Part shown: positions 24,410 to 62,281 of the stretch, piece after piece | How the letters are laid out: each line of letters starts with the position of its first letter | Numbering within the stretch: the first letter of the stretch is position 1 | From: Trileptium ribeirensis | Taxonomy: Eukaryota > Nematoda > Enoplea > Enoplida > Thoracostomopsidae | NCBI GenBank assembly: GCA_030248225.1 | Contig: JASANE010003705.1 | Coordinates: 1 to 64,000, forward strand | Direction: 5' to 3' | DNA: 64,000 bases | Notes under the pieces: generated by a model | The model's database searches: none | Told to the model about the DNA's origin: nothing | Seen by the model: only the letters and a program-made list of their open reading frames with translations | Made by a program: the position numbers and the translations under genes

Positions 24410-24423
24410 TTCTTGTTTCTTAT

Positions 24424-24866
24424 TGAGCGAAGCGTTTTTATTTTCTGTCTGGGAGTAAAAAGGTCGATGTCGGTCCGTCCGTTCGTTCGTTCGTTCGGTC
24501 CGACTGATCTCAAGAATTACTGAACCGATTTAAAAAAACTTTTTTTGTTTGAAAACCTATCATGTCAGAGTGTGCACCTGATATTTGGGATTAAAAAATT
24601 TCGAGTGGTTAATTAGTAATTAGCTAATTAGCTAAGCTTATGCAACTAAAATAGAGAATTTTGCAATATCTGTGTTATTTATTGAAATAGAATCGTTTCG
24701 ATCAAACCATTATAGGTTTTTTGGGTCGAAGAATTCAAATATAATATTTTTACCAATGATAAAACCCTATGCCCTATGCAATGTAGTTACAAGAACATAA
24801 AATTAAGTACATTCGTAATGCCACAGTCCAAGCTCCGTTCACAAATGTAGTTCCACCACCGACTAT
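24424..24866 (+). mobile_element. GAGCGGAGC-ended repeat copy
   Basis: Same family as 15414-15858 in opposite orientation. It runs from GAGCGAAGCGTTTTTATTTTC through GTCCGTCCGTTCGTTCGTTCG, TTTGTTTGAAAACC, TTAATTAGTAATTAGC and AATGCCACAG to AGTTCCACCACCGACTA. It abuts the truncated 5' end of the LINE. Noncoding. Confidence 0.8.
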
Positions 24867-30041: not shown

Positions 30042-30452
30042 CAGGGAGTAACCGGAATTCCGGTTCCGCGAAAATCGTGTTCCGGATGTGGTTCCGGCAA
30101 AAGGCAAAAATACCGGAACCGGAATTCCGATTTAAAAATTTTGTTTAAAATTGTCCATAATCTTTGCTTCATCTGTGGTCCAATCATACGTTATGGATAC
30201 ACAATTATCAAGTTGCAACACAACCAACGGACATTTTGGTCGATAAATGTTGTAGCTTCCTCAGTCTCTTCAAAGTCCCAAAGAGGCAATAACGTCATCG
30301 CAATACATTAAATTTAATGTTGTATTTTAAATCCACAGTGCCTTCATTTCGTCCTTCATTTGTTTTACTATATATAAATTTCGAAAACCAGCTTCGGGAT
30401 CCAGTTTAAGTGGACGGTTCCGGTTCTGTTAGATTTCGTTTCAGGATTACTG
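30042..30452 (-). mobile_element. Internally deleted copy of the hAT element (about 411 bp)
   Basis: Starts with CAGGGAGTAACCGGAATTCC. It retains the GTTCCGGCAAAAGGCAAAAA subterminal block and the GTTGTAGCTTCCTCAGTCTC / TATATAAATTTCGAA blocks of the long copies, but lacks about 750 bp of interior. The right end is eroded and no target duplication remains. Confidence 0.8.
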
Positions 30453-35674: not shown

Positions 35675-36837
35675 CAGAGAATTACCGGAACCAAAATTTA
35701 CCGGAACCGGAACCGTCCATTTAAACCGGATCCGGAACCGGAACTGGTCTTCGAAATTTATATATAGTAAAACAGATGATGGAAGAAATGAAGGTATAGT
35801 GGATTAAAATGCATTAAAAATAACTTTTGCATTAAACTTAATGTATTGCGACGGTATTATTGCCTTTATGAAACTTTAAAGAGACTGAGGAAGCTAATAA
35901 TGTTTATTTTTCGATCAAATATATCGGTTTTTGGACATTCAGAGCAAAAATGTCTTCCACTAATACACCATTGCATGTACTGCGTCAAATCGAATATGCT
36001 TACAAAGCTTGGAGCGTAGAATACACACTTTCGCTCTGTCTCCAGTCGCCTCCCTTTACTACACATACGTTTGTTGTATGTTCTTCTGTAGGAAACTTAA
36101 AATTATTGGTTTATATGATTCTAAGAGAAAATAATAGATATAAGGTAATTTTCTGATCAGTGGTCAGAGACACTGTTTAGGCTAGCGTTGAACAAACAGT
36201 GCCCTTCAGTTAGATCATAATGATGATAACTTTCTAATCAGAATGCTATAAATGAGACACACTGTGATGCTGCTCGCACAGTTTCAATAAATACAGTTCA
36301 TTGCCAAGAAAGCAGTTTCTAGCTGCGTTGCAGATAACGTTATTTTACTTCAAGTTAAACTGATTTACCAAGTTTACAAGCGCACTGGCGGGTGCCTGAC
36401 GCAATTTATGTTAGCCAAGCATACCCTAAGTACTTCTGCGTAAGCCATACTCTGTTACCGAGTTGGACCGGTTTAATTCAAACGTATCCAACAGACTTCT
36501 GGATGTGTAAAATAGCTGCTACAAGCATTGACCTGGCTTTGATTTAACAAACTCCTGCAGGTTATTATGAAAAATTCCTGCTCAAATTATGTGCCCTACT
36601 TACGTTTTACACGGCAAATTGGTTAGTTAATCTTTTTTTTTGATTGGTTGTATTGGAGCTTGATCATTGTATAATATATATTACATATGTTTGGATTGCA
36701 GGATAAAGCAAAAAACGTGGAAAATTTCAAACAAAATTTTTAAACCGGAATTCCGGTTCCGGTATGGTTTTTGCCCTTTGCCGGAACCGGAACACGATTT
36801 TCGCCGGAACCGGAACCGGAATTCCGGTTACTCCCTG
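35675..36837 (+). mobile_element. Nonautonomous hAT element in the Polinton left arm (1163 bp)
   Basis: Ends CAGAGAATTACCGGAACC and GGAATTCCGGTTACTCCCTG, with a perfect 8-bp duplication ATAGTTAT at 35667-35674 and 36838-36845. No coding capacity. Confidence 0.93.
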
Positions 36838-39072: not shown

Positions 39073-40831
39073 TTTCAATCTGTAGTATGTACCACCGATA
39101 CCACAGAACTCAAGAGAGCGCAAACTCTTAACTCGTAAAGAAAAAAGTAATTATGTATGGAAGTCATGTGATAATAGACTTGTAAACCACTTGTACAAAC
39201 TATGCAGTACCTACAGCGACATTCACTAGCTCAATACCTGCTCGCATAACTTACAGCATTGCAATTTGATTGGATTTCGGGGAGTGGTGGGACTTGTACG
39301 AAAATCTAAGTAATACAGGAATGCCAAACCGCCCCTCCACCATTTTTCATTTAGGACCTATCGCAGCTCCTTAGTTAATTAATAACTATAATTTTTCACC
39401 TCGAAAATTTGTATCGCTAAAGTTTTCAACACTCAGAAGACAAAATAATGGCTAATTTATAGTTAATTGCTTATTTTAGTGAAATCGTATGGTTTACAAC
39501 AAACATAATTTTGTATTTAGGTTGCTGAACATGTTGAAATGTTTATACTGACCTAGTGAAACGTTGCTGTAAATTATGTCTGAGAAATAGAATGGCATTT
39601 TCTCTTTTAGTTGCAGTAATGATTTCACATGACTGATTCGCAGATTGTGATGTGCTGTTGATAAAACTGTTCACTACAGAAGTCGTGAACATAATTTTTA
39701 TAAATCGATATTTTTCAGTCGTTTACAAAAACGTGTTTTGTATTGTCACAGCTACATTGAAATTAAATCCTTGGCGTCATACTCTTGTAAAATAAAGTTT
39801 TTTGTCAGTAAGTTGGACTTGTTCTTAATCATGACGTGCACTTGGGGTGAGACTGTAAATACTCGATTTTCCATGTGATGATACAGTACCAATTAATCAT
39901 CAGAATTAAAAGTTACAGATTTTTTTTGCCTAAATACTTAACATCAATCTTTTCTATAACAAAATTGTTTTGTCGGGAGAACGTCATAAACATTAACTTG
40001 TGTTTGGTGTGAGCGTATGAAGGCTATTTTTCAGTTTCTCTCGCGTAACATCAAGTATATGTTATCAATTTCATCGCAGCATATATTATTGAAGCATGTG
40101 GTGGTACAAGCTTAGGTAAAAATGAGCAAATATGATTTTACTCAAGCACATTAAGTATGAATATCTGAATTGTTTATTCAGTGATATTGAAATTCAACCT
40201 TAATCTTATCGTCATGAAACATTTTTAGGATTAAGAGAATATTTAGCAGCATTTTTGAAGCGAAAAACAGTTACTGCAACACAACCGCAACGGCAAGTTG
40301 TATAGCAAGCATTTATTGGGTGTAACATGCTTAGAGTTAGCAGCTATCGTGTTGGGTAGATTCGGAATATTACATACCAACCGTTTCCGTTTGCACCTAC
40401 TTAATAGCAAATATTAATTATGATTCTGCTGATTCACGGCTTCCATGTAGATTCAGCGAACGTATAATCGATAGAGCTGACATTTGGAGAATATATAAGA
40501 CCTACCACTATCAGCCGTACATTCTAGTCCCTTACCAGTGTGCTTGGCAATAATGCATTTTTTGTTTGAAAAGTTTGCTTTGGTTTAATCCGCCAAAATA
40601 AATTAGATACCTAATGTTATATATAACTACGTGGATACGTATTAGAAACCCGGAACTATCTAGTTTGTTGCAAAAAGGTTTTTATAAGAATACATGGTCC
40701 GTCAACGTCATTCGAGATAATTGAGGTTTCTCCACCTGAGACGCTTAGTGTATTTCATCTCTTGTAAGCAATAGTCAACCGGCCATTTTGATTATGGGGT
40801 GTGTGCAGATATTTAGAACTAAATTTTTAAC
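39073..40831. other. Polinton left arm, noncoding or decayed
   Basis: AT-rich and without any open frame of note or recognisable repeat. It probably contains eroded element sequence or further old insertions. Confidence 0.4.
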
Positions 40832-41416
40832 CAGTCGTAGTGGAACTACATTTTCTGAGCGGAGCGTCGGCATTAGTAATATGAACGTACTCATTGTCTT
40901 GGGAATATATTATTACCTAGACAACAATGAGTAAATGAAAGAATAGTTTTATTCCGTTCGAACGAAAAGCAAGACAAAGGAAGTCACGTGGTTTATACAG
41001 CATGGTGATGAATTGTAATCGAAGCACAGCAATGAAATCATAGGACACGGAGTCTGAAAATAAATTTGCCTATAACATTCGTACTATACTATTCCTGTAT
41101 GTACAATGCATCTATTTTCTTATTTCCCCATGGAAAACTCAACGTATATGCCGTGAAAACGACTCTACAACCAATAATTAAGCTGTTATGAGCTTAAGTT
41201 GGGTGCTAATTAGCTTAATTAATGATAAAATTGGCAAGTTGCCAAACTTCTAAAATATCAGGTGCACATCCTCACATGATAAGCTTTCAAACAAAAAAAA
41301 GTTTTTTTGAAATAGGTTAAGTGGTTCTTGAGATCCATGAAGGACTTAACGGACAAACGGACATCGATTTTTTGCTCCCAGTCAGAAAATAAAAACGCTT
41401 CGCTCGGTCCGCTCAA
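40832..41416 (-). mobile_element. GAGCGGAGC-ended repeat copy with extra internal sequence
   Basis: Opens CCAGTCGTAGTGGAACTACATTTT-GAGCGGAGC and closes AAAAACGCTTCGCTCGGTCCGCTCAATGAG, matching the family ends. The interior has unrelated sequence of about 150 bp (near 40920-41080), so it is a diverged or interrupted copy. Confidence 0.65.
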
Positions 41417-43087
41417 TGAGTATTTTGATTATAACAATTTATCTCTAAAAACATTACTATTTTCATATAAATGTGTTTTGGCGTGTGGACATTAACAGAA
41501 TACTAAGTTCTGGTAATCTCATTGATGATGCAGACTCAAGTAACGAGAGTCTAGCAGAAATGACGATGATATCATTTTGACCTTGTGAAGGAACCAAAGG
41601 TTTTAACATTTTATTTCATGTTAAAGCTATATTCCGATTCTAGTCATTAAATCTTGACGTTGTTTACCCCTCAGAGGCCTGGAAACGAGGGGGTAAGGGG
41701 GATGTATCCACAAATACAATAACCCCGACTCCATACAAAAGATTTTCGTTTGTGTAACACTGGTAACCAGCAGAACAACCAACAAATGCATATAGGTAGT
41801 AGAATTCGTATACTAGATTTAACCGAGAAAAATAATAAATCTAAGAATAAATAAAGAAAAATAATAAATAAATAATAATTTAAAATAATAATAAAATAAG
41901 AAATTGTACAATAAACAAGTTCTACTCACAAAGTGAATGAAAAAACAGTATTCATCATAGTCTTACGATCGTTAAATGTTGTAATGCTAATATTCTATGT
42001 TGTTGAGACAGCTGATTCTACTTAGTATACCTAGTGATATTTACAAAACGAATAGGTATCTAACTTTTGGGTGCGCTCCACATTCCCCCGAAGGCTCCCG
42101 GGCTTGCGACTGGCGTAGTGGTGTTCCACCCTGTTTTCGGTTAACCTGATTTTGGGTGGGGGATTTCCCGATGTTCAACATTGGTGTTTCCGCATTTCCT
42201 TATCCATTTCTCGTTCCAACTCCGAACAAGAACTGACCAAAAAGGCAGTCACGACGGTGTAATCCATGGCGATCACCATTGCGTGGCATACAGGTTGGTT
42301 AGTGTATCCACGAACTCCAATCGGTTGTCGAAATGACGGAAAAATACGCGGCATGGGCGGTTATGGCTTTTTATTTGTGAACCCCGTTTCAAAATCCGCT
42401 TGGCCGTCTTTTCGGGTTTATAAAACGAGTATTTTTTGGCGGAATTGGGACCCGAGTGCCCTTGAAGAAAATGTTTGGACAGTTTAACAGTCGCATGAAG
42501 GCGATGGCTGTAAAACTTTTCACAAAACATGATATCGTGAATTTACGATAATTGAAGTATCAAATGAGGATCGATCGACGTCTCACTTTATTTTATAACA
42601 TCAGCTTTTTTGGTGTATGCCGCCGCGCGTTACTCCGCAAGCTACCCCTGACTGAGTTCTTGTAAACATACTAAAGCGGAACGGTATGTCGTTTTGTAAA
42701 CTAAGTATGAGGTTGAATTTTTTTATAAAACTTAATTGTATATGAAATTCCCACCCACTGAGAGGACAGCTTCAAAATCAACCTTGCAATATATTTCAAC
42801 TTGAAGGGTAAAAGTCATAACTTTACAGTTGGGATCAAATTTTCCCATAGTGGAGGAATAACATCGACAACTGTTAAATTTGATTCTAGCCCCCGTCCGT
42901 TCATGTCGCACCGATGTAAAATCTAGCTTTAGCCAAAGTATTCGAAAATGGTCTACCAAGGCTTTGAATGTATATAGTTGTAAAGATGGTAAAGATTCAT
43001 TAATCATGGTAATATTAATGAACTGAAATGGAAGGTATCGAATTTTGTGTGTCCATGTGAGTTCTAGATTCTCGGAGGTCTTAAAAG
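41417..43087. other. Region between left arm and polymerase, no gene assigned
   Basis: Contains A/T low-complexity sequence (41820-41900), a GC-richer block (42080-42260) and overlapping short frames at 42266-42530 on both strands. The minus-strand frame 42273-42530 (SHRLHATVKLSKHFLQGHSG) looks protein-like but I cannot name it. Confidence 0.35.
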
Positions 43088-46000
43088 ATGGCTTTGAAAA
43101 GCAGTATTTGTAACAAGGAATTTAATCGTAAACATCACTTCACATGACGTATGGACTCTGTACATGACAAAAAGAAACACCGATGTCATCGGTGTGGTGT
43201 AACCCCTGCTCGCAAAGACATCCTAAAACGTCACATCGAAAAACAGCTCAAATACCTCGATGAATTCCTTACGATTGATCAACCATCAACATCACGTCAA
43301 AATTTGATGTCGAGTACACCGCGACAACAGCAATCGGCATCTAGCACAATGCTGCAGCAGTCGGGGATGCAACAGTGTTCTCAACAAAGTGCTGGTGCGA
43401 TGGTGCAACAACAGTCGGCGTCAGTTCAGTCATCGTATAGCACAATGTTGCATCAACCGCAATGGAGGAGTCAGCGAACCTCGATCTTCTACAACGCATG
43501 GCGCAGGATATGGTGGATGAACCACTATCAAAGACCCGACGCTTCGATGACAATCTGGGCGATCTAATTGTGATGGCAAACGATATCGCTTCGTGCAAAC
43601 ATCGATCAACAATCGGCAACCGTACCAATGATGTCACGTTCTTGCAATGCGCTAGAGCGCTCAGAGGGTACATCTTCAGCTATTATTTAGTTCCCAATGA
43701 GCTGACTGTGGATTTGTCAATATTTTTGCAGCAATCAGGACGACTGTTGGAAGACCTCATTACCCAAGAACTACGTCGTGGTATTAAGCTGTGGATCAAT
43801 GTCGAGTGTTTGTTGCGTAAACTGAACGGTACGCAGATGACAGCACACTTCAACACCAGATCCTGCTCCATGCTACCCGAATCAGTCATTGATGATGTAA
43901 TTACCGTCATGTTTGGTGAACTCGTGACGAAACTGGATGACTTCCAGGCAAAAGGGGTTGGGTGCTGCAAAATGTTCAGCACGTTGATGTACATATTAGA
44001 GTCTATCGTACTCTACGTGAATCGACATATAAGCAGTTACCTGCTTACATCCATAAAAACGCGCAGTCATCAACGTGCAAATCAGTGACAATCGCTGCTT
44101 CTTATGGAGTATTCTCGCTAGCATTACACCCTGTTGATCATACCCAAACACTCACAGCGTATAACAACTACCAACAATATTCCAATGAACTAAACGTGAA
44201 TGGATTAGAGTATTCCGTGAAGTTACAGGACATTCCACGGTTGGAACGGTAAAATAACATAGCAATTAATGTTTATGGACTTGAGAATAATTGCATTTTC
44301 CCACTGTATATATCAAAGACTCAAAATATCCAATATATTCATTTGCTATTATATGACAATCATTATTGTTTGGTTCGTAATTTGGACGCATTGTTGTTTA
44401 CCAGCGTCGTGATCATCGCAGAAAATATTTCTGTGATCATTTCTCTTTCCATGTTATTGTCCCGAACAACGTGTTGAACATCTCGATCGCTGTTGGATCG
44501 GCAAGCCCTCCTGTATCAAAACTCCACCAGAAAATTCCACCCTACAATTTACCAACCTCCATCGAATGCAACGGGTTCTTTACGTGATTTATGCGAACTT
44601 TAAGTGTGTATTGCAAAAAATACAGTCGTGCACACCATCCACATCTTCATCGTTTATTAATCCATATCAAAGACACGAACCATGTGGATATGGTTTGATA
44701 GACTGTTTTGGATGTTGCGATGGTCGTGTAGCAGGGAATAACCGGAACCAAATTTGCCGGAACCGGAACCGTCCATTTAAACCGGATCCGGAACCGTCCA
44801 TTTAAACCGGATCCGGAACCGGAACTTGGTCTTCGAAATTTATATATAGTAAACCAGATGAAGGAAGAAATCAAGGTATAGTGGATTTAAAATGCATTAA
44901 AAATTACTTTTACATTAAACTTAATGTATTGCGGTGGTATTATTGCCTTTCTGAAACTTTAAAGAGACTGAGGAAGCTAATAATGTTTATTTATTGATCA
45001 AATATGTCGATTTTTAGAAATCCAGCAAAAATTGCCTTCCACTATGCACCATTACGTATACTGCGTCAAATCGAATATGCTTACAAAGCTTGGACCGTAG
45101 AATACACACTTTCGCTCTCAGTCGCCTTCCTTTACTACACATACGTTTATTACATGTTCTTCTGTAGGAAACTTGTGCCCGTAAGTTAGATGATAATGAT
45201 GATAACTTTCTAATCAGAATGCTATAAAGTAATGAGACACACTGTGATGCTGCTCGCACAGTTTCAATAAATACAGTTCTTTGCCAAGAAAGCAGTTTCT
45301 AGCTGCGTTGCAGATAACGTTAGTTTACTTCAATTTAGACTGATTTACCAAGTTTACAAGCGCATTGGCGGGTTCTTGAAGCAATTTATGTTACCCAAGC
45401 ACACCCTAAGTACTTCTGCGTAAGCCATACTCTGTTACCCAGTTGGACCGGTTTAATTGAAAGGTACCCCACAGACTTCTGGATGTGTAAAATAGCTTTG
45501 ACTGGTTAACAAACTCCTGCAGGTTATTATGAAAAATTCCAACTAAAATTATGTGCCCTACTTACGTTTCAAACGTCAAATTGCTTAGTTAATCTTTTCT
45601 TTTGCTTGGTTGTATTGGAGCTTGATCATTGTATAATATATATTACATATGTTTGGATCACAGATGAAGCAAAAAACGTGGAAAAATTCAAACAAACTTT
45701 TTAAACCGGAATTCCGGTTCCGGTATAGTTTTTGCCCTTAGCCGGAACCGCAACCGGAACACGATTTTCGCCGGAACCGGAATTCCGGTTACTCCCTGTC
45801 GTGTAGAGATTGGAAACCTCATTATATATCGTGGTCCCAATGTAGTTGAAGCATTTTTACATAATCTTATGGAATTGACTGAAAACTTTCAGGCTAAATA
45901 TATTAATGAACCAAAAGAACTAATTATGAACGAAACTGATAAATTTGACTTTATCAGTTCAATATACTGTTATTTGTGTGGATGGTATATGAATCGCGAG

Positions 46001-48447
46001 GAAGAGGCTATAGACCATTGTCACTTTTGTGGTAGGTACCGTGGAGCAGCACATTCTAATTGCAACATTGGCTATCGTCTTAGTCGTGATGTAACAGTGT
46101 TGTTCCACAATCTGCGGCGGTACGATGGTCACCTCATAATGCAGGAGCTTGGTTCCATTTGCGTCGAAATGGTTCTCGAAGTTGACTGCATCGCGAAAGG
46201 TATGGAGGACTACATGATGTTCTTCCTTAAACGAACAACGAAAAAGCAACGCAGACAACATGATCTAATGGCGGCGACTGAATCAACTCATGACAAAGGC
46301 GACAGCGAATGTTCGGATGAAAATCAGGAAGGGGTTGATTTCATTCTTGGTTGTAATGATGTCCAAGATGATATGGATCAGATCGGATACAAGATTGGGT
46401 TCATTGATTCGTTCCAGTTTCTACCATCTTCTCTGCAGACATTGGCAGAAAATCTCAAACAAGATGACCCAATGCTTTAACGATAAGCTCAGTCTTATGC
46501 TTGGAAAAGGCATCTATCCGTACGAATATGTCAATGCGATTTCCAAGTTTGACAACCGAATCCTACCTCCTGATTTGTCTTTCTATTCCAGTCTCAACGA
46601 CAGCAACGTATCCCTACAAAGTTACGATCACACTCAAACCGTTTGGAACGAAATGGGTATTCAGACTCTCGGCGAGTATCATGATTTTTATCTAAAGACT
46701 GATGTGCTACTACTGAGAGACGTTTTCGAGAACTTTCGAATTCTTTGTCTCCAGAAGTACCAGCTTGATCCGATCTACTACGTAACCTTCCCCAGCTTTG
46801 CTTGGGACGCATGTCTCAAGTATACGAAAGTAAGACTAGATTTGATATCCGATGTTGACATGTATTCCTTCTTCGAGGAAGGTATACGAGGTGGGGTTTC
46901 TGTGATCTCCCACCGTTATGCAAGGGCGAACAATCCGTACGTTCAGGGTTATGATCCATCCCAAGCGTGCATGTATATTATAGACCTAGATGCGAATAAT
47001 TTGTACGGAAATTCAATGGCTCAGAAACTTCCAACGCATACGTTTAAATGGTTGACAAGGGAGGAAAATGATGCTGCGGATTGGGCAACAGTTGATGTTA
47101 CTGGTGACACTGGCTATATTTTGGAAGTAGGTTTAGCATACCCATATTATTTGCACGACAACCACAACGACTATCCGCTAGCACCGAAGCGTTTGCGCAT
47201 TACGGATAATATGCTATCCCTATATTGCAGTGAAATAAAGACATCACTCATTGTGGAACATTGGACTGCTTAGAAACTTGTTCCCAACCTCAGAGATAAA
47301 ATCAAGTACAAAGTTCTGATTCGGAACTTACAACTGTACTTGTCTCTGGAGAAGGAACTGAAACAAGTACACCGGGTTGTTTCATTCTACCTATGGATTG
47401 GATGGAATCCTACATACCGCTCAATACCGATATGCGTAAAAGCGCACGCAGTAGCTTTCAAAAGGACTTTTATAAACTGCTCAACAACGCAGTATTTGGA
47501 AAACGATGGGAAACTTGCGCAGTTACATAGACGTAAAGCTAGTCATAGACCCTGAAAAGCTTGTAAATATGGCAGGTAATCCCCGATACTCCATGTCCTC
47601 TATATTCAACGAAAATTTGGTTGCTGTTAAGATGCAGCGAAAAACTGTTAACCTTTGAAAAACATTTTACATCGGGTTCACCATATTAGACCTATCAAAA
47701 ACCTGATGTACAATTTCCACTGTAACTACATGAAGGAGCTTTACGGTAACAATTGTAAGCTTCTTTTCACTGATACTGACTCTCTCTGCTACTCTGTTAA
47801 GACCCCTGACATCTATAAAGATATGCTATACAATTCTTCACATTTTGACACGAGTGACTGTCCTCGAGATCATCCACTGTTTTCGTTGTAAAACGTTCGT
47901 AAAATGAAGGACGAAACCGCAGGCGTTGCAGTTGCTGAGTTTACGGGTCTGCGTTCGAAGATGTACAGTATCAAATGTGGTGGCGGTGAAGAAAAAACGG
48001 GCAAAGTGTATCAAAAAGAGTGTCGTAAAGACGGAAATAAAGCATCCCAATTACGTCGAAACGTTGTTAAATGGAAGCAAACTCAGACATCAAGTGAACA
48101 TTATACGCTCATATAAACATAATCTCCATACAACAACTATAAACAAGATTAGCTTGTCATCATACGACGACAAGCGGTATATCACAACCGACGGAATTAG
48201 TTCATACTCTTATGGACATTATAGTATTATAGGACAGGATGATCTGACTCAACTTATTAACGAAATAAATGATGATATGTTCATTCAGCTGTTGACTGAA
48301 ATGTGTAATCCGATGAACAATAACATCCATACATACCTTATTTCACGAGATAACTTAGTAGAGATTGTAAACGATACCGAATCTATTACCCACAACGACC
48401 TTGTAGAACTAGTGACTGACATTGAGAATGACTTAATGGATCACTAA
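43088..48447 (+). pseudogene. polB: Polinton zinc-finger/protein-primed DNA polymerase B, broken and interrupted
   Basis: The replicative polymerase of the element. Order: C2H2 fingers at 43088-43240 (CHRCGVTPARKDILKRH), with a stop at 43146; a glutamine/serine-rich linker; a conserved N-terminal region at 43462-44250; an exonuclease I position near 44585-44605, where the expected acidic pair reads YANFKC; a Cys/His endonuclease-VII-like block (DHCHFCGRYRGAAHSNC) at 46010-46065; an exonuclease II-like FHNLRRYDGHLIM; and an exonuclease III-like YHDFYLKTDVLL at 46677. Polymerase motifs follow: A (DLDANNLYG, 46985), B ([10 protein letters not shown], 47475) and C (FTDTDS, 47768). An acidic insert separates exonuclease II from the next conserved block. 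A hAT element at 44732-45798 splits it. At least five frameshifts or stops are present. The last open piece (47926-48447) ends the gene. Confidence 0.92.
44732..45798 (+). mobile_element. Nonautonomous hAT element inside polB (1067 bp)
   Basis: CAGGGAATAACCGGAACC start, GGAATTCCGGTTACTCCCTG end, and a perfect duplication TCGTGTAG at 44724-44731 and 45799-45806. Polymerase coding resumes in register on the right side once one duplication and the element are ignored. The left part carries an internal doubling of CCGTCCATTTAAACCGGATC (44770-44812). Confidence 0.95.
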
Positions 48448-48558
48448 TTTTTGTGGTATATAATGTGAACTGACACTTTTTGTTTGCAGTGTTCCTGTTT
48501 GCGATGTTAATACTTATTGATACAAATATCCAAACTTCTTAAAAGATAAGCTGCTTTA

Positions 48559-50749
48559 ATGTTTAGACCTACTGAATTGGATGCGAAGTTTAAGAATATA
48601 TACTGTGACCCCCGAAATGTACCTAGCTGGATTTTCTACAGCTCCATAGTTATACTTGGAGCTGAAGAAACAGGGACTACGCGTGAAATTAAAATATGTC
48701 CAAGAGTGATTAAGAGCACAAGAGACATATACTTTACATAAACCACGCAGACTTAAGCGTCGCCGCACCGTTGTTAGGGGTTTGGGTGATTTATTTCAAG
48801 AGGATTTGGCAGATATGTCCAGCTTATCATCTTGTAATGATGGATTTAAGTACCTACTTGTTACTGATTGTTTCTCGAAATTTGCATGGATTATTCCGGT
48901 TAAAAATAGAACGTCACCCATTATTGCGTCTGTTTTAAAATCAGTCTTTGAAAATCAATACCAAAAATTTTCAGACAGATAACGGGAAAGAATTTGTTAA
49001 AAACTTGATATATGATTATTACAGAGCTAAGGGTCAGCGAATAACCGGAACCGGAGCCGTCCATTTAAACCGGAACCGGAACCTGGTCTTCGAAATCTAT
49101 ATATAGTGAAACAGATGAAGGAAAAAATGCAGGTACAATGGATTTAAAATGTGTTAAAAATAACTTCTACATTAAACTTAATGTATTGTGATGGTATTAT
49201 TGCCTTTCTGGAACTTTCAAGAGACTGAGGAAGCAAAATAATGTTTATTTATGGATCAATATATCAGTTTTTGGACCCCTAGAACAAAAAATGTTTTCCA
49301 CTATACATCCTTGCGTATATTGTGTCAAAATGAATTTGCTTATAACGCATGGAGCGTAGAATAAACACTTTCGCTCTGTTTCCAGTCGCCGCCCTTTACT
49401 ACACATACGTTTGTTACATGTTATTCTGTAAAAAACTTGCCATTATTGGTTTATATGGTTCTGAGTTTATAAGGTATACATACTATAATTTTCTGATCCG
49501 TGGTCTGGGACACTGTTTATGCTAGCGTTGGGCAACCAGTATTGGTCAGCTAGATGATAATGATGACAACTTTCTAATCACAATGTATAAATAAGACCAA
49601 CTGTTATACTGCTCGCACAGTTTCAATGAATGCAGGTCATTGCCAAGGACGCAGTTTCTGGCTGCGTAGCAGATAACGTTACTTTACTCAACGTAGACTG
49701 ATTTACAAAGTTTGCAAGCTCACTTGCTTGTGCTTGACGAAATTTTTGTTAGCCAAGCTTGCAGCTAAGTATTTCTATATAATCCATACTGTATTACCGA
49801 GTTGGACCGGTTTAAGTCTAACATACCCAGCAGACTTCTGAATGTGTAAAATAGCTGCTATGAGCATCGACCTGGCTTTGTTTTGTTAACAAACTCCTGC
49901 AGCTTAACATAAAAATTCCAGCTGAAATTATGTGTCCCACTTACGTTTCACACTGTAAATTGCTGAGTTAATCTTTTGTTTTGTTTGGTTGTATTGGAAT
50001 TTGATCACAGTGTATATATTACGTAATGTTTCAACCACAGATGGAGCAAAAATGTGGAAAAATTTTTTAAACCGGAATTCTGGTTCCGGTATGCTTTTTG
50101 CACTTTGCCGCAACCGGAACACAATTTTCGCCGGAACCGGAATTCCGATTACTCCCTGCTAAGGGTATAAATATTTACACCACGAAAAACCAAGAAACTA
50201 AGGCTAGTATAGAAGAACGTATCATACGTACAGGCAAAGCAAAAATTTTCAAATTTCTAACCGCTAGAAATTGCCAGCGATATATTAATCACTTGCAGTA
50301 TATAGTTTTCAGCTATAATAACACAGAATACAGCTAAGGTTTTGTTCCGGCAAATGTCACTAACCAAAATGAACATTTAATAAGAGAAAAGTTATTCCCT
50401 GCAGTCTATATTGATGTTTATTTTAAAATTGGAGATGTCGTACGAATTTCAAAAGAAAGGTTACCATTTGAACGTGGATTTAATCAACTATGGTCACGTG
50501 AAGTTTTTACTGTTAACAACCAATTTTCTTTTGATCCATGAAATTGTTGATGCTAATAAAGAAGTGATTCTTGGTAAATTCTATGGACCTGAGTTGCAAA
50601 ATGTTAAAGTTATAGACGATATGTATAAGATTGAAACAATTTTACGAAAACGTAAGACTGCACACGGTACTGAATATCTGGTTAAGTGGCTTGGGTATCC
50701 TAGTTCCGTGAATTCATGGGTACATGAAAAAGATTTACAAGCAATATGA
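48559..50749 (+). pseudogene. int: Polinton retroviral-type integrase with chromodomain, broken and interrupted
   Basis: The DDE enzyme that inserts the element. The N-terminal part (48559-48770) is frameshifted. The catalytic core shows the first Asp in YLLVTDCFSKFAWIIPVK (48850-48903), the second in QTDNGKEF (48972-48995) after a frameshift, and the Glu in ASIEERIIRTGKAK (50203-50243). A hAT element (49035-50158) lies between the second Asp and the Glu. A stop at about 50335 and another frameshift precede the C-terminus. A chromodomain closes the protein: YKIETILRKRK, EYLVKWLGYP, NSWVHEKDL (about 50625-50745). Chromodomains on Polinton integrases are thought to guide target choice. Not functional. 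Confidence 0.93.
49035..50158 (+). mobile_element. Nonautonomous hAT element inside the integrase gene (1124 bp)
   Basis: CAGCGAATAACCGGAACC start, GGAATTCCGATTACTCCCTG end, and a perfect duplication CTAAGGGT at 49027-49034 and 50159-50166. Integrase coding continues on the far side. Confidence 0.95.
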
Positions 50750-50799
50750 ATGGCACACTTTGCGATACTGGCTATAAAAGTGTTTAATCGTAATGTATA

Positions 50800-51060
50800 T
50801 GGGGTACGCAAAGTACGTATGTGGGTACACATATACATATCTGGTGGTGACATCGGGGTACACAAAGTAATCACGTGGGTACTGAATTTCACATCTAGTG
50901 GTTAAAACCGGGTACACAAAGTGACTACAGGGGTACACAGTTACATATTTATGGTTAAGCAAGGGTACTTATGGTACCCCTATGGGTACATAAAGTACCT
51001 TTATCGATACGAGATTGCTTACTGAATTGTAAAATAATGTACTATTTAGGGGTACATATT
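50800..51060. repeat. 54-bp tandem repeats with paired GGGTAC motifs
   Basis: GGGGTACGCA/GGGTACACAAAGTA occurs at 50801, 50855, 50909 and 50963, and a second GGGTAC at 50823, 50876, 50930 and 50984, so a unit of about 54 bp holds two motifs. Further GGTAC motifs continue to 51049. It lies between integrase and ATPase genes. The minus-strand open frame through it (18-residue period with FVYP/TTR) follows from the 54-bp unit and is probably not a gene. Confidence 0.8.
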
Positions 51061-51179
51061 CATATGATATATTCATATTCATCATATTGATACGCAAGTG
51101 TATAATGTATGCTTTCTCCCAGAGGAAATGGGAGAAAAGTCTTAAAAACGTCTTTTTTAACCATTATATTTGCAAGACA

Positions 51180-51947
51180 ATGAAATACGTGTGCGCTAAT
51201 TGTCATCACAGCTACACATCACGTCAACATTTACACAGACATAAGAAAAATTTGTGTATCACAAGCGCTGGCTCCAGCACCACCTCTAATTTCTGAGAGT
51301 AGTGTACAAAAATGTAATGCTAAGATACTTTTACCACTGGAGCTACCGTTCACTTGTGTTGTAAGCGGTCAAACTGGGTGTGGAAAAACTGAGTGGATTG
51401 CTCGTTTGCTGAAACACAGTTTTTTTGATCAAACCGTGAACAAGATTTTGTTTTGTTACAGTATATTTCAAGATATTTAGCAGAAACTTGCAGGTGAAAT
51501 TCCCAATTCGGAACTTTATGAAGGTCTTCCTTCGGAATTTCCGCAATCAACTACTGGTAGTACCGTCCTCATATTAGATGACTTAATGCTAGAAGCATCA
51601 AACGATGAAAAATTAGCTGCTGTGTTTTCGAAAATGCGGCATAACAAGCTGAGTACAATTTTTGTCGCCCAAAACTTGTATCACCAAGGTAAGTACATGT
51701 GAACCACTACACGAAACGCACCATATATAGTACTGTTTCCAAATGTTAGAGACCAGTCTATGATTTTTATCCTAGGACGACAATTGTGGCCTTTAAAACC
51801 GCAATTTCTCGTTAGCCTTTCGAACAAGCAACAAAGACACCACATGGGTATCTTTTCTTAGATTTAAAGGCAACCACAGAAAATATATTAAGGGTTCGAC
51901 GGAATATATTTCCAGATGATGATGATCATATGTATGTATATGCTTAA
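51180..51947 (+). pseudogene. Zinc finger/FtsK-HerA-type genome-packaging ATPase of the Polinton
   Basis: The N-terminal C2H2 finger (YVCANCHHSYTSRQHLHRH, from 51183) is joined, across a frameshift near 51275, to a packaging ATPase. Walker A is SGQTGCGKTEW (51364-51396). Walker B is VLILDDLM near 51566-51590. A downstream helix has TIFVAQNLYHQGKYM. It ends with a short acidic tail (NIFPDDDDHMYVYA) at 51947. In-frame stops at 51478 and about 51700 inactivate it. The ATPase would pump element DNA into capsids in a virus-like lifestyle. A finger-ATPase fusion is seen in Polintons. Confidence 0.9.
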
Positions 51948-51991
51948 AACGACGTGTACATGTTTGAAAAATGTAGAAAAAATATCACAGC

Positions 51992-52243: not shown

Positions 52244-52690
52244 ATGGCACGTAAAATGGTTATAGTTCCGCAAGTTGGTTTGATGTAATACGAAATGGTG
52301 AGTTGCAAGATAAAACCCATACACCTGTAAAAACTGAAGTTTCTTTATACGACACCCATGAGCAAAAAAATGATCTATCTCTATGTTGAATGGTATGAAA
52401 AATTTAAACCTCAATCAAAAACAATCAAATTATTTACCCGGATAAAACTATTGGTTCAAATATTTTTGGTCTTTTAAAATACTTTGTGTCTGGTGTTAAT
52501 TTCTCACTCCACGAGCTTTAGATTCTTAAAAATTTGAGTCGATGCTCTCTGAAGTACCAAAATTGGCATTTGGGTGGGGAAGCAGAGATAAAATGACGTC
52601 ATCATGGGAAAGTATATATTAACTAACCAATCAACGCGTGCTACACAAATTTATGTAAAGTCTCACACCAGGATCTAAAAGTCATTTTAA
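52244..52690 (+). pseudogene. Decayed small Polinton gene
   Basis: Starts with ATG and a conserved-looking MARKMVIVPQVGLM, then stops after 14 codons. Coding-like fragments continue in other frames to about 52660. It occupies the slot between the small basic protein and the NADAR gene. The rest is too eroded to classify. Confidence 0.45.
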
Positions 52691-52703: not shown

Positions 52704-53222
52704 ATGGAGCATACAAAATACCGCACGTCTGGTGATAATACTCGACTTGTACTCTTTCGTTCAGGGTGGAGTGTATTCAGCAATTTTAACGTGCGTAACA
52801 TTCTTATCAACGGCGTCAAATACAACTGTGTGGAACAGTGGCACCAAAGTGAGAAAGCTCGCTATTTTCATGATGTCCTTCTTATTACGCAATTATGAAT
52901 ACATATAAACCATCACAGCAAAAGAAAATTGGTCGAGGAATTATAAACTTTGATGAAAAACTGTGGTTACAAAACGATAATGCTGTATGTGTTATGAAGT
53001 TAGGTCTAAAGTTAAAGTTTCAGCAATTAGCACATGTAAGAGCAACTCTTATTGGCACAGAGAATGCGTTATTAGCGAAAGCATCGCAGTGGGATAACTA
53101 GTGGGGAATAGGGAAGAGCATATGCGATCCAGCGAGTCGTGACATTAAACAATGGACGGGACAAAATATGTTGGGACAGTAAGTTGTGGATGGAAATTCG
53201 AGACGAACTCAAGTGCTCATAA
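52704..53222 (+). pseudogene. NADAR-domain (YbiA-like) gene in a Polinton, broken
   Basis: NADAR proteins act on N-glycosidic bonds; family members hydrolyse riboflavin-pathway intermediates or remove ADP-ribose from nucleic-acid guanine. Visible blocks in order: RSGWSVFSNF (about residues 20-29), CVEQWHQSEKARYF (45-58), KKIGRGIINFDEKLW, LKLKFQQLAHVRATLIGT, ALLAKASQWDN then WGIG, and QWTGQNMLG followed in a shifted frame by WMEIRDELKCS and a stop at 53220-53222. The span of about 172 codons fits the family. Damage: a frameshift near 52875, a TAG at 53099-53101 just before WGIG, and a frameshift near 53180. The next gene starts 5 bp after its stop, and both lie between the ATPase and capsid genes, so it belonged to the element. 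The family call is firm; the exact reaction is unknown. Confidence 0.85.
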
Positions 53223-53227: not shown

Positions 53228-53770
53228 ATGACTATCTTATCTAATGTCGGTTGTAGCATTGATTTGCTACATTTATCATATAATATTGACAATTTTAATT
53301 ATAACACAATAAGGTTCAGTGGAGGTATTTGGAAATCTAAACCACGAGGTACCGCTTTACTATTTTCTAATGGAACAATTGTTTTGGTTGGTGTCCGGTC
53401 TGAAAAGGAAACTTCTTTAATATTAAATCGAGTTCGTGAAAATCTTTTCAAATTAAATTATCAATGTTTAACACAGTTTAGCTTTACAATCAAAAATGTA
53501 GCTGGAATTTTGCAAACTGGACAAAACACTAATTATACACTAAACACAAAACATACATTAACCAAGTTGTATAGCGAATGGAAGTCTATTTTCCGAGTAA
53601 TGTACGAACCTGAGTTACACAACGCACTTATTTTAAAATTTGACAAGAATGTAACGCTAATATTCAGAACAGGCAAAGTTGTGATTACATTTTGTAATAA
53701 TATTAAAAGCTACTATAATTATGTGTCTGTTGTAAATAGCATGCTTAAATGCTTTTTTAATAAAATTTGA
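53228..53770 (+). CDS. TATA-binding-protein-like protein encoded in a Polinton
   Basis: 180 residues, uninterrupted, with the two-repeat TBP core and almost nothing else. Repeat 1 (about 1-80): NVGCSIDL, FNYNTIRF, KPRGTALLFSNG (38-49), VGVRSEKE (54-61), KLNY. Repeat 2 (about 84-178): FTIKNVAG (86-93), MYEPEL (125-130), TLIFRTGKVV (143-152). Of the four phenylalanines that in animal TBP wedge into the TATA minor groove, three have counterparts (Phe30, Phe46, Phe146). The fourth position is His131. Start: the ATG at 53228 lies 5 bp after the NADAR stop; the frame is open further upstream but that part overlaps NADAR coding. Predicted role: recognising promoters of the element's own genes or competing with host TBP. 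It is not the host TBP gene: intronless, much diverged and embedded among capsid genes. Confidence 0.88.
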   Translation: MTILSNVGCSIDLLHLSYNIDNFNYNTIRFSGGIWKSKPRGTALLFSNGTIVLVGVRSEKETSLILNRVRENLFKLNYQCLTQFSFTIKNVAGILQTGQNTNYTLNTKHTLTKLYSEWKSIFRVMYEPELHNALILKFDKNVTLIFRTGKVVITFCNNIKSYYNYVSVVNSMLKCFFNKI

Positions 53771-53790
53771 TCTAAGACAAAACGGAGGTT

Positions 53791-54432
53791 ATGATAATTT
53801 GTAATTTAGACAATACGTCAGTTGAATTTCTGACACAATTTTTGCGCTACTAACGTGCGTTTGTTAGAAGCAAAAGCTCCCAACAAGTACATAAAGTTGA
53901 ACAAAATACTGTACAATACCTAGAGGTTAAATCATGGAAAAGTTTTACTCTGGAAGAAGGTTATTACGATATTGAAACGTTGCTTCAATTTTTGAATAGA
54001 TTTTTTTCAAAAATTACATTTAGTTTAGACCCCACATGCGATAAAATAAACATTTATTGTTTGGACGTTGCAGAAATTAGGTTATCGCGAGAACTTAAAG
54101 GTTTGTTTGGACTTGAAATCTCTCATTTATAAAATGGAAGATACATTGGTGAAATACCCGTGGATTTAACAGATAACAAACCTCTTTTTATTCTTGGTTC
54201 ATTTGTCAAAGAGATATTTTTTAACGGTAAATACATACCAATATTACATGTCATTTCAGAAAGTTGCAATAATACGGTATATCTACAACTAAACGACACC
54301 TTGCAGAAAACGTTCCCGTTTCAAGTAGTAGTTGCAGAATTAAAACTTGTTAGATTTTTTAAAAAAATCACAATTATTGTTGCAGTTGTGCTTCACATAA
54401 AATGCTTAAAAAGGTTTGTATTGGTAAATTAA
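53791..54432 (+). pseudogene. Polinton minor-capsid-like (penton-type) protein
   Basis: About 210 codons with two in-frame stops (near 53850 and 54130). Recognisable features are LEEGYYDIETLLQFLN in the middle, a beta-rich stretch KINIYCLDVAEIRL, an LFGLEISHL segment, then EIPVDLT, and a C-terminal strand VVLHIK. The arrangement (GYY-LL motif, central strands, C-terminal LH strand) matches the conserved virion protein that sits next to the major capsid gene in Polintons and is regarded as a minor/penton-type protein. I cannot tell which published name applies. Confidence 0.6.
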
Positions 54433-54444: not shown

Positions 54445-54621
54445 ATGTCTACATCTCTTTGCTTCAATTCAGCTAATCTACCGGGTGCAGTTCCAAGACG
54501 TGTTCATGTTATAAGTAGGAGAAATAAGTCCGTTACTCGAAAACGCAAAACTCTTAAAACGAAACAAAAACACGTTAAACCGCTGAACAAATGGCGCAAA
54601 CGCGTGGGCTTGAAAAACTAA
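54445..54621 (+). CDS. Short arginine/lysine-rich protein
   Basis: 58 residues from ATG, open. After a neutral start (MSTSLCFNSANLPGAVP) it becomes strongly basic (RRNKSVTRKRKTLKTKQK, NKWRKRVGLKN). Its position between minor- and major-capsid genes and its composition suggest a core or DNA-condensing virion protein. That is inference from charge and place only. Confidence 0.6.
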   Translation: MSTSLCFNSANLPGAVPRRVHVISRRNKSVTRKRKTLKTKQKHVKPLNKWRKRVGLKN

Positions 54622-54630
54622 ACTGGGAAA

Positions 54631-55697
54631 ATGAGTATATCCTACACAGGACTCTGTTGTTTCAACTTAGCTTATTGAAGTAGCATGTGAAGCGGCATTA
54701 CCTAGTTCCAGCGTTGATGATATTTTGAGGTTCAAAATTAGTGAAAGTGCTTATAATTTATTAGATTTATCTCAAATTTATACATATCTTGAGGTACAAG
54801 TACTGCAGTCAGATGGAAAAAATATACCTGCAGATAAATTGGTGAAACCATGTAATATGTTTGGCTATGCATTATTTTCTGCTATCGAGATGAAGATTAA
54901 CGGTGTACCCATAACGTTTAATCAAACAGGAGTACGAAGGAATACAAACATTATGATGTCTCAGAAATGTGAACTATATTTCCCAGTTATAATAGATTCA
55001 CACGTAAACCCCAAGTATTTACCGCCGAAAACCCTTATGGAATTAGAGTTTGTTAGAAGTACAACAAATCTCGTTCTTTTACACCATGGTAGTTCACAAT
55101 ACCAAATTCGAATAAATGAATTTAAAATTTACATTTCTAAATGCTCTGACTCTGCTATGACTCTTAAATACTACTGGTGCAAATTATTTTGGAATCAGGT
55201 ATAAAATACACACATTATCTGTAAACAAAGGTTTACAAAATGTAGACTGGGCAATTTTTGAAGAAAATCTACCTCGCAGGATATACATATGGTCCATTCT
55301 GCAGGAGGCTTATGGAGGCTCGGCAAAGAAAAATTTGTTGGAATTTTCACTTCCGGATATGGATCATTTTACTATATTTATGAACGATGATCGCTATCCC
55401 TGCAATATCACCGTACCTTGTAAAGACTCCAGTACATTACGATGGTATTATTATACATTGCAAGCATTGAATTATAAAAATGACAATTTGGAACTAACCC
55501 GGGGATCATTTAAACCAAACGCAGGAGACCAAATATTTTGTATTGATTTGTGTACAGACCATAGAAGTGATTGTAACTATCTAAGTAATCCAGAAAATGG
55601 ACAAGTTCAATTATGTATAGACTTTTCAAGCGAACTCAGTAAGGCAATAGTCATTTTTGGGATGGGTAAATTTCCTGCTGAACAAAAATATGCTTAA
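54631..55697 (+). pseudogene. Polinton major capsid protein (double jelly roll), frameshifted
   Basis: Conserved blocks: FKISESAYNLLDLSQIYTYL, then FGYALFSAIEMKINGVPI (54860-54915), a beta-strand region with LMELEFVRSTTNLVLL, RINEFKIYISK, then after a frameshift near 55190 NLLEFSLPDMDHFTIFMND, a GDQIFCIDLCTD segment and QLCIDFSSELSKAIVIFGMG. These follow the order of strands in Polinton major capsid proteins. A stop lies early (about 54686), and a section between the two halves of the first jelly roll seems shortened. About 350 codons remain, against 400-500 usual. The final stop is at 55695-55697. Confidence 0.85.
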
Positions 55698-57564: not shown

Positions 57565-58713
57565 CAGGGAGTAATCGGAATTCCGGTTCCGGCGAAAATC
57601 GTGTTCCGGTTGCGGTTCCGGCAAAGGGCAAAAACCATACCGGAACCGGAATTCCGGTTTAAAAATTTTGTTTGAAATTTTCCACGTTTTTTGCTTCATC
57701 CTGTAATCCAAACATATGTGATATATATTATACAATGATCAAGCTCCAATACAACCAAGCAAAAGAAAAGATTAACTAACCAATTTGCCGTGTGAAACGT
57801 AAGTAGGGCACATAATTTGAGCAGGAATTTTTCGTAATAACCTGCAGGAGTTTGTTAAATCAAAGCTAGGTCGATGCTTGTAGCAGCTATTTCACACATT
57901 CAGAAGTCTGCGGGGTACGTTCGAATTATACCGGTCCAACTCGGTAACAGAGTATGACTTACGTAGAAGTACTTAGCCTATGCTTCGCTAACATAAATTG
58001 CTGTCAAGCACCAGCCGGTGCGCTTTAAACTTTGTAAATCAGGTCAAATTGAAGTAAAGTAACGTTATCTGCAACGCAAGCAGAAACTTGCTTTCTGAAA
58101 CTGTGCGAGCAGCATCACAGTGTGTCTCATTTATAGCATTCTGATTAGAAAGTTATCATCATTATCATCTATCTGACGGGCACTGTTTATCCAACGCTAG
58201 CCTAAACAGTGTCTCTGTCCACTGATCAGAAAATTACCTTCTATATAGTATTTTCTCTTAGAATCATATAAACCAATAATTTTAAGTTTCCTACAGAACA
58301 TGGAACAAACGTATGTGTAGTAAAGAGAGGCGACTGGAGACAGAGCCAAAGTGTGTATTCTACGCTCCAAGCTTTCTAAGCACATTCGATTTGACGCAGT
58401 ATACGCAATGGTGTATAGTGGAAGACATTTTTTTGCTCTGAATGTCCAAAACCGACATATTTGATCGATAAATGAACATTATTAGCTTCCTCAGTCTCTT
58501 TAAAGTTTCAGAAAGGCAATAATACCATTGCAATACATTAAGTTTAATGTAAAAGTTATTTTTAATGCATTTTAAATCCACTATAACTTCATTTCTTCCA
58601 TCGTCTGTTTTACTATATATAAATTTCGAAGACCAGGTTTCGGATCCGGTTTAAATGTACGGTTCCGGTTGCTGGTTCCGGTTCCGGTAAATTTCGGTTC
58701 CGGTTATTCCCTG
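57565..58713 (-). mobile_element. Nonautonomous hAT element near the Polinton right end (1149 bp)
   Basis: Starts CAGGGAGTAATCGGAATTCC and ends CGGTTCCGGTTATTCCCTG. The flanking 8-mers CTATTTAC (57557-57564) and TTATTTAC (58714-58721) differ at one base. Opposite orientation to the three other copies in the Polinton. Confidence 0.92.
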
Positions 58714-60233: not shown

Positions 60234-60686
60234 TGAGTGGAGCTCGGCGAAGCCGAGCGAAGCGTTTTTATTTTCTGTCTGTGAGTAAAAAGGTCGATGT
60301 CCGTCCGTTCGTTCGTTCGGTCCGACGGATCTCAAGAACCACTGAACCGATTTTAAAAAACTTTTTTTGTTTGAAAGCCTATCATGTCAGAGTGTGCACC
60401 TGATATTTGGGATTAAAAAATTTTGAGTGGTTAATTAGTGATTAGCTAATTAGTTAATTTTATGCAGCTAAATAGAGAATTTTGCAATATTTGTGTTATT
60501 TATTGAAATAGAATCGTTTCGATCAAACCATTTTAGGTTTTTTGGGTCGAAGAATTCAAAAATAATATTTTTACCAATGATAAAGCGCTATGCCCGATGC
60601 AATGTAGTTGCAAGAACATAAAACTGAGTACATTCGTAATGCCACAGCCCAAGCTCCGCTCACAAATGTAGTTCCACTACCGACTA
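60234..60686 (+). mobile_element. GAGCGGAGC-ended repeat copy, best preserved
   Basis: Starts GAGTGGAGCTCGGCGAAGCC (with a CTCGGC-GAA-GCCGAG hairpin) and ends AGTTCCACTACCGACTAG. The interior is nearly colinear with 24424-24866. No transposase. Confidence 0.8.
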
Positions 60687-62281
60687 GTAATGGAATGTTG
60701 CTGCGTGTGTCTTGTTTTACTGGTCGTTTTCAAAATCTGGGTTCGTTTTGCATTTTGCCGCAAGCTTTTCAAAGCGCCATATGTGAACAATATTGTCTTT
60801 TTTCTGGTTTATGATAAATATTCGTGTGAAGTGTCGCCTTCCTAAAGACCAAAGATACTGCAACGTTTAGAGGAGTAGATAAAGAAGCCGTTAGAGCCTA
60901 TTATTAAATGTAGCAATGTTGGACTATTCTGAGCGTTGCCAATGGGGTTTCATATCAAAAGAGATCGGAATGTAAAAACTATATTTAATGCAATGGGTTC
61001 CACGCTGCTTGTACTAAATTCCAGACGACCTAAACTTAGACTAATCAAAATTCTCTGCCTAATCATTCTTATCTTAGAACTGCTGGGCGAGCTTTATTAG
61101 GCAGCCGGGCCAAAAACTGACGTATGAATAATATTGTCGTAAATTTGCGGTTGTCATGCTTCGCAAAAAACGGCGTCTTTTTGCTTTTCGGAAATGACAT
61201 GGCTACAATTTGCATAGTATAGACCGTATAGTCATTCCGCACGTTGAGACGACAGCCTAAATCCGAATAAAATGTAAATTAAACTTTTTTCGGGACATGT
61301 CATTTCCCTGGCCTAACATGGGTTGTCGCGAAAGCACTTAAGATCCATTTTTGGTATCTTTAAAATATTGGGACTCCTTATCAAGCTTCGATATAGCATA
61401 GCTGATCACGGTGTTACGGCCGTTCTTACGATATAGACGTAAGAAAAGTACTCATACTTTCTTCGTCCACATCTCTTTTAGAAACTTGTTTCTTTGATTT
61501 AATTTTTGTACATAACGCCACTTACGTACTTGTACTAAAAAAACTTTCGTGAGTTTTAAATTAAATTTTTGGATTTTTTGCTATGCTTTGTAATGTTGTG
61601 TACATGTGATTTTTTTAGCTGTGTATGTTTTTCATTAAAAAATACAATGCTGTGGCTGCCGACGAAGATAATTCTTGTTTTGTCTTGTACGTTCTGAATT
61701 AGTAATTTATACCGCGTCTTTGCTCAGGTGTGTTTCGGAGTGGTCATACAATGATCGGTCATACATATATAATGTACACTACAAGTGTATTAAGTTTATA
61801 TATAAAGCATCATCATCACATGTATACCGTAGATACTTGTATATGTACATGTGTGCTCGAACAACAGCTAATGATAGCAGTGGCGGACCCCAAGATCGGA
61901 CAAGTAATTTAGAAGCAACTCAAATTAATTAGGCACTGCAGCAACACTTCGCCTTAAAAAACCCCCATAAGTTCGTCGTGAACGTACATTTCAGAACAGA
62001 TCATCATTTGGTGAAAACCGATCCGCGCTTAAATTCTATAGCTATTATATTATTTCTATAACTATTCGATATAGTACAGCTGCGTTATATTTGCTTTTGG
62101 TTATTTTATTGTATATTAATACATAAGATCAATGCATGAGTAAACTTAAGCTGTGAGGCTTACCATCCTCTTTTGTCAGAAGGAAAATCGATTTCGTTGT
62201 TCGGTAAACACAAATTCAATTTTTGTATAAAGGAACAGAGTTTAGGGGTAATGAGCTATGAGCTAATATATTTCTTCAGTA
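60687..62281. other. Intergenic region left of the hAT transposase fragment
   Basis: No supportable gene. A segment near 62130 is shared almost word for word with 25910-25931 (ATGCATGAGTAAACTTAAGC), indicating another dispersed repeat. Confidence 0.4.

Follow-up and report, generated by a model that had tools for sequence, protein, structure and literature searches.

A gene of the TBP family recurs inside Polinton-type elements of the nematode Trileptium ribeirensis, and most other genes of the main-clade elements are preceded by an altered TATA-like box, CTTAAAA(A)G. Like CTTAAAAG, it differs from the TATA box TATAAAAG in the first two bases. We assume, with a probability of roughly 0.6 for the two statements together, that TBP of this family is a long-established Polinton gene and that it acts as an element-specific core-promoter factor, which chooses the promoters of the element for the host RNA polymerase II. 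The starting point was one copy in a 64,000-nucleotide stretch (contig JASANE010003705.1, positions 1 to 64,000), hereafter the window.

TBP Gene of the Window

The gene lies at positions 53228–53770 of the plus strand and encodes 180 amino acids from the first ATG; its frame is open upstream to 53183. The plus strand stays open for 180 codons, and the opposite strand of this segment is rich in stops. The initial annotation, made from the sequence alone, had read both TBP repeats and their typical sequence blocks in this frame. Both are present, and the Pfam profile PF00352 matches the protein over two stretches with an E-value of 7.9e-22 and 77.3 bits (cut-off 22.9). The saddle fold of the family, whose absence had been named beforehand as a reason to give up the assignment, was recovered by structure search. 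The protein also matches human TBP in the PDB with an E-value of 2.7e-13. A single-sequence AlphaFold2 model (pLDDT 35) was set aside. The start codon is uncertain: an Asn that aligns with a minor-groove Asn of TBP sits just before the first ATG, and in 15 of 35 matches examined the frame contains an earlier ATG, at most 15 codons upstream. The window protein also carries an insertion of 8 residues that is absent from the other 14 rows of alignment A1.

Recurrence, Selection and Relatives

A search of the 687 Mb genome for TBP gave 673 first-look candidates, of which 150 were scored, many of them with open frames. NADAR and a penton-like or MCP-like gene are present in the retrieved stretch around TBP in 40 of 43 distinct loci (the exceptions are L012, L016 and L024); these loci are the best matches, not a random sample, with the window copy excluded and nine overlapping or identical ones dropped. 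The same gene is found at the equivalent place in other Polintons of the genome, the lack of which would have spoken against the initial annotation. Long stretches show the order INT, ATPase, S1, S2, NADAR, TBP, penton-like, basic protein, MCP-like, TM. NADAR and TBP are adjacent on the same strand in 74 of the 77 NADAR rows inspected (out of 150 scored), which, the rows being mostly from contigs already listed for TBP, is not a rate. The matched edges of the two genes are 11–85 bp apart in 62 of these 74 pairs; among the other 12, three at 153 bp fit the spacer of the L044 lineage described below and the rest are matches to one TBP repeat. Open frames of 333 aa around many copies were considered as fusions and rejected, being the NADAR region in another frame.

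The element TBP is under purifying selection. Of 20 pairs of copies chosen, 18 have a dN/dS ratio of 0.10–0.45 and one, a young pair, has 0.82; for the last, the ratio was not computable. In a midpoint-rooted tree, all 29 element proteins included form one group (support 95/57), and the host TBP joins two nematode TBPs (support 94/85, with few other named animals included). The copies fall into a main clade (clade 1) and a second, deep clade (L051–L054), to whose member L051 the clade 1 rows are 24–33% identical. Clade 2 keeps the order S2-NADAR-TBP-penton-like-MCP-like.

One close relative was listed, P0002, with 51% identity; it is a fragment of 98 aa whose contig measures 739 bases. No other close relative appeared among the matches listed (43 for alignment A1, the best 120 of 2008 for A3), from which 17 and 16 sequences, respectively, were inspected. 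A protein search with the single query P0001 scored none of 52 candidates, and a pattern scan of IMG/VR matched 12 stretches, none of which was confirmed.

Two further observations concern the genome at large. NADAR is hugely amplified, with 2317 first-look candidates (150 scored); many listed matches end differently in the profile and have frames of 190–330 aa, perhaps representing another mobile family. COX1 matches occur only at C17193:64554-65603, a broken copy with stops that is apparently a nuclear copy of the mitochondrial gene.

Element Type and the Window Copy

The elements are near 20 kb in size. A retroviral-type integrase is present (L026: rve E 1.5e-13, Chromo 3.3e-11; window: Chromo 2.4e-10), as is an FtsK/A32-type packaging ATPase (PF04665, E 1.5e-5, over the cut-off, in L026). 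The 952-aa PolB-type frame of L024 (6145–9000, minus strand) has recombination endonuclease VII as its only Pfam match (PF02945, E 2.9e-5); motifs such as DTDS, which we take to be polymerase motifs, were seen by eye in the PolB-type frames. Among the 20 frames given to Pfam there was no RNA polymerase and no adenovirus-type protease, the latter not being specifically sought. As for the capsid genes said to follow TBP, genes of the expected place and size are there, but their capsid identity did not come out by significant match: the penton-like and MCP-like proteins gave no significant family match, and the MCP-like protein no match in the PDB. The capsid names follow place, size and the Polinton gene order.

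The window copy is a decayed element. Its PolB, integrase, ATPase and NADAR genes are broken, the penton-like gene has lost its start codon, and a dispersed repeat of 1.1 kb is present three times, within or after its genes. All of the following parts are on the plus strand. PolB remains extend in several frames over 43151–48447, with a dispersed repeat inserted at 44780–45798. A CTTAAAA box at 43080–43086 stands 71 bp before the ATG at 43151, whose frame tentatively begins with a zinc-finger-like part upstream of the PolB remains. PF03175 matches a broken piece at 46269–47273 below the cut-off (E 1.5e-4), and the upstream PolB frames resemble by eye the PolB-type ORF of L024. The integrase remains with the chromodomain (48577–50749) are split by the repeat at 49043–50158; their box, at 48538–48544, lies 39 bp before the start site, which is TTG here. 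The same distance separates the box at 51141–51147 from the ATG (51180) of the A32-like ATPase remains (51180–51702), which contain an internal stop and match PF04665 below the cut-off on 51481–51702 (E 0.0012). A box at 51943–51949 precedes the small gene S1 (ATG 51992) by 49 bp; for S2, no box at −100 is listed in the window copy.

The NADAR gene annotated beside TBP is indeed there (52704–53101, ATG 52704; PF08719, E 0.0014 and 2e-11) but is not intact, its pieces lying in two frames. The sequence TATGTAAAG at 52652–52660 is apparently a decayed TATATAAAG box, which in close relatives is found 50 bp before NADAR. The penton-like start at 53782, which is ACG here, has a decayed box, CTTAAAT (53744–53750), 38 bp upstream, at the 3′ end of the TBP gene. 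The names of the penton-like (53782–54432) and MCP-like (54591–55697) remains are based on their place and size. The small basic protein gene (ATG 54445) has its box 40 bp upstream at 54405–54411, and the MCP-like gene (ATG 54591) 38 bp upstream at 54553–54559.

The initial annotation gave the Polinton ends as terminal repeats with a target duplication, which we could not confirm: at 44.8–45.8 and 57.6–58.7 kb, the inverted repeats are copies of the dispersed 1.1-kb repeat, which also splits the window integrase and adjoins the host TBP gene. Candidate terminal repeats are a 65-bp match between 40830–40893 (plus strand) and 60625–60688 (minus strand), beside which no matching 6-bp duplication was seen. 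A repeat at 41.2 and 60.4 kb, which resembles a retroposon tail, was set aside by eye as an element end. Whole or partial copies of the 1.1-kb repeat in the window are at 28445–29584, 30042–30426, 35700–36837, 44780–45798, 49043–50158 and 57565–58670; the copy beside the host TBP gene (L050, 1829–2933) is 5′ of the first exon found. The window segment of 15.4–24.9 kb (about 15415–24864) is flanked by the inverted end sequence of the 65-bp candidate repeats, AGTCGGT(A/G)GTGGAACT, and contains a 1011-aa frame that by eye resembles a non-LTR retrotransposon. In many clade 1 loci, the INT-ATPase spacer (50780–51080 in the window) is full of GGGGTACA-type repeats.

DNA-Contact Residues

The initial annotation stated that three of the four DNA-wedging Phe are kept and that the fourth is His131, and the positions read off the alignments agree. 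We take the four positions to have the wedge role, which is partly borne out by PMC10005294. All 15 copies of A1 have F30, F46 and H131; beyond A1, L044 and L047 carry Tyr at the third intercalating site, and the broken copy L042 carries Gln there. In alignments with host TBP, A1 and A3, the intercalating sites of clade 1 are Phe, Phe, His and Phe/Tyr. Those of clade 2 are Phe, Trp, Phe and Phe, with F at the H131 site and W at the F46 site, and neither clade has the four intercalating Phe of canonical TBP. Since only three of the four sites are kept as Phe, the element protein is, as read from the alignments, a diverged member of the TBP family and not a canonical TBP.

Further residues differ as well. 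Phe-Pro after YEPEL in three cellular rows is His-Asn in clade 1 and Tyr-Asn in L044, and the first-repeat Thr of cellular TBP is Val or Leu in the element TBP. The YE(P/T)EL surface motif, the stirrup, is retained. In TBP, the C-terminal Phe pair is the one that inserts at the box's 5′ end. The kinks in the TBP-DNA complex are at base pairs 1–2 and 7–8, with two Phe per side, according to the available part of PMC10005294. In yeast TBP, substitutions of Phe190 (by Arg, Gln or Thr) and Thr124 (by Asn or Arg) abolish DNA binding, as given in the available text of PMC2265533; the changes in the element TBP would therefore be expected to alter DNA recognition.

Promoter Boxes

The 160 bp before the ATG of ten clade 1 gene types were searched after removal of near-copies, which left 80 stretches. 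The commonest 8-mer, TCTTAAAA, occurs in 37 of the 80, with a shuffle mean of 1.1 and a highest count of 13 for any 8-mer in 50 shuffles. CTTAAAA was found in 48 of the 80, vs. a mean of 4 and a maximum of 9 in 200 shuffles; the counts come from related copies and hence are not independent. The search for a shared upstream element before Polinton genes, which had been proposed with the initial annotation, thus gave a strong positive result.

With few exceptions, CTTAAAA starts 31–44 bp before the ATG of the INT, ATPase, penton-like and MCP-like genes. Between −50 and −28 it is present in 8/8 INT, 11/14 ATPase, 32/33 penton-like and 21/24 MCP-like starts, vs. 0/31 for NADAR; the starts without an exact box there number three for ATPase, three for MCP-like and one for penton-like genes. 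Both S1 and the small basic protein gene have it before 28/28 starts (one locus counted twice). The S1 ATG is mostly 32–41 bp away, and its box overlaps the ATPase stop codon in 26 of the 28 and lies just past the stop in the other two. S2 has the box at about −100, inside S1, in 27/27 cases and not at −35. TM has the exact box in one of seven cases and CTTAAATAG in five more; the H and Z genes have no box nearby. When the last 60 bp are excluded, gene bodies (seven types) contain the box 6 times in about 103 kb. The penton-like box lies in the coding end of TBP, and in 22 of 25 genes its CTT-AAA encodes the final Leu-Lys; these are related copies, and in the three misses the script chose another Leu-Lys. 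CTT makes up 15% of the other Leu codons. If the box works at the distance of a TATA box, transcription would begin no more than about 15 bases from the ATG.

The NADAR-TBP pair differs. NADAR lacks CTTAAAA at −50 to −28 in all 31 loci, three having it further up. TATAWAR, usually TATATAAAG, is found within 150 bp of the NADAR start in 23/31, compared with 2/8 for INT, 2/14 for ATPase, 0/27 for S2, 4/33 for penton-like, 0/24 for MCP-like and 0/7 for TM. It is missing within 150 bp from the other 8 of the 31 clade 1 NADAR starts, some of which have one further up. Of the 11 deduplicated 160-bp stretches before TBP itself, 10 contain no box. The exception is L044, in whose lineage (L044 1089–1228) TBP is about 140 bp from NADAR and has its own CTTAAAA box (CTTAAAAGG) at −37. 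This lineage slightly lowers our confidence in the mechanism set out below.

The TBP of L044 may drive its own gene through the CTTAAAAGG box. In six loci (L023, L025, L026, L030, L036 and L039), a CTTAAAAAGG box stands exactly 41 bp upstream of the TATATAAAG box before NADAR, and in this place, upstream of the NADAR-TBP pair, it is possibly a late promoter or a means of self-regulation.

In clade 2 the box is another one. CAT(A/G)AAA(A) was found at −35 to −57 in 8/8 upstream stretches (S2, NADAR, penton-like and MCP-like in two lineages) and CTTAAAA in 0/8; shuffled stretches gave CAT(A/G)AAA with a mean of 0.6 and a maximum of 4/8. The clade 1 counterpart has CTTAAAA in 46/66 and CAT(A/G)AAA in 0/66. 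The box therefore differs between the TBP clades, a covariation that rests on two clades. The MCP-like gene of L054 is preceded by CGTGAAAAG, one base off the clade 2 box. Since NADAR of clade 2 also has the clade 2 box, an early TATA switch would be a feature of clade 1, and an early/late split would not be general.

Proposed Mechanism and Alternatives

In clade 1, the host TBP would first read an ordinary TATATAAAG promoter, giving a single transcript for NADAR and TBP. The element TBP, with His in place of the fourth wedging Phe, would then bind the CTTAAAA(A)G boxes, some 35–40 bp upstream of the genes, and recruit the host TFIIB and RNA polymerase II through the retained YE(P/T)EL stirrup. 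The boxed genes, i.e., those for replication, packaging and the virion, would thereby be switched on by the element TBP. The chances seem even that these virus-like transposons of about 20 kb possess a private promoter code, in which TBP and box have diverged together from the host TATA, differently in each clade, while the TBP operon of clade 1 was left under TATA as an early switch. In other organisms, enzymes of the NADAR type undo the ADP-ribosylation of guanine (PMC11125620), so the partner of TBP could shield element DNA.

The initial annotation had offered two roles, promoter recognition by the element and interference with the host, and the box favors the former. Were the protein an agent of interference, it would compete for TATA boxes, TFIIB or TFIID and damp host transcription or defence, the box being read otherwise. 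The retained YE(P/T)EL motif would suit this role, and the activity of NADAR enzymes just cited would make the operon a possible counter-defence pair; a clade-specific TATA-like box at the TATA distance before most other genes is left unexplained, and we consider such a role unlikely. Somewhat less unlikely, but still improbable, is that the CTTAAAAG box is read by the host TBP or another factor of the element and that the element TBP has a task in replication, packaging or chromatin opening. The box shares its TTAAAAG part with a host TATA box, and it could be read, for example, by a zinc-finger protein of the element: some element proteins have zinc-finger-like starts, and the ATPase has a weak match to zf-C2H2 (E 0.022). 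Against this, TBP is the only core-promoter factor among the frames examined, and in clade 1 the loss of a wedge Phe accompanies the replacement of TA by CT at the first step.

One might think of a retrocopy of a host TBP-family gene that landed in one Polinton by chance, because the element TBP genes have no introns, whereas the host TBP, of ordinary sequence, is encoded by an intron-bearing gene (contig C9496). This origin is refuted by the NADAR and capsid-like neighbors in 40/43 loci, the two deep clades, the identity of 28–31% to host TBP (five proteins compared) and the purifying selection. Recognition of the element's own promoters remains our preferred reading.

Significance and Comparison with Known Systems

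These findings bear on how Polintons switch on their virion genes and on whether they make particles. A dedicated TBP with a box before most genes would provide a directly testable switch. If the proposal is true, no smaller eukaryotic DNA mobile element with a general transcription factor of its own would be known to us. The TBP and the box also offer a natural experiment on how a TBP shifts its DNA specificity. Among the open-licence papers listed, judged by titles and the starts of abstracts, there was no report of a TBP, a NADAR-TBP pair or such a shared box in Polintons, which is a weak form of absence. PMC11071296 contains no TATA, TBP or NADAR in its text, and the available part of PMC12220804 does not mention TBP.

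The family has a chromodomain integrase, an A32-like ATPase and a putative PolB-type frame in common with Polintons/Mavericks and adintoviruses but differs in the NADAR-TBP pair and the shared promoter box. Cellular TBP, the TFIID/TFIIIB subunit (PF00352), is about 30% identical to the element TBP, which is encoded by a mobile element, has no long N-terminal domain and differs at one intercalating Phe in clade 1 (His) and at another in clade 2 (Trp). TRF2 is a cellular gene, whereas the element TBP belongs to a mobile element. TRF2 is a diverged TBP paralogue that lost an intercalating Phe and TATA binding, and its core element is described as not yet identified in the available part of PMC10005294.

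In BFVD, the TBP of Heterosigma akashiwo virus 01 was matched with an E-value of 5e-9 and herpesvirus U58 with 0.012, too weak to count; the listed matches with E up to 0.001 have 10–19% identity. The TBPs of giant viruses and mirusviruses are likewise encoded by eukaryotic dsDNA viruses, but giant-virus and mirusvirus genomes are far larger than this element of about 20 kb. TBP is encoded in 59% of mirusvirus genomes (PMC10132985, available part), and TBPs are also found in mirus-like elements of a green alga (PMC10675990, available part).

The nearest parallel in logic, by analogy, is the herpesvirus TBP-like factor. According to the available text of PMC4893493, the TBP-like proteins of beta- and gammaherpesviruses bind the TATT boxes of late genes and bring in the host Pol II. 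EBV BcRF1, KSHV ORF24 and CMV UL87 would thus follow the same logic of a viral TBP-like fold on a variant TATA box, and a variant TATA box is likewise found before the virion-gene candidates of the element, which are named by place. BcRF1 is about 10% identical to TBP (PMC4893493, same part) vs. about 30% for the element TBP, and the herpesvirus factor is described with five partner proteins, none of which was recognized in the element. In general, the element may place Polintons alongside herpesviruses and giant viruses in the way late transcription is organized.
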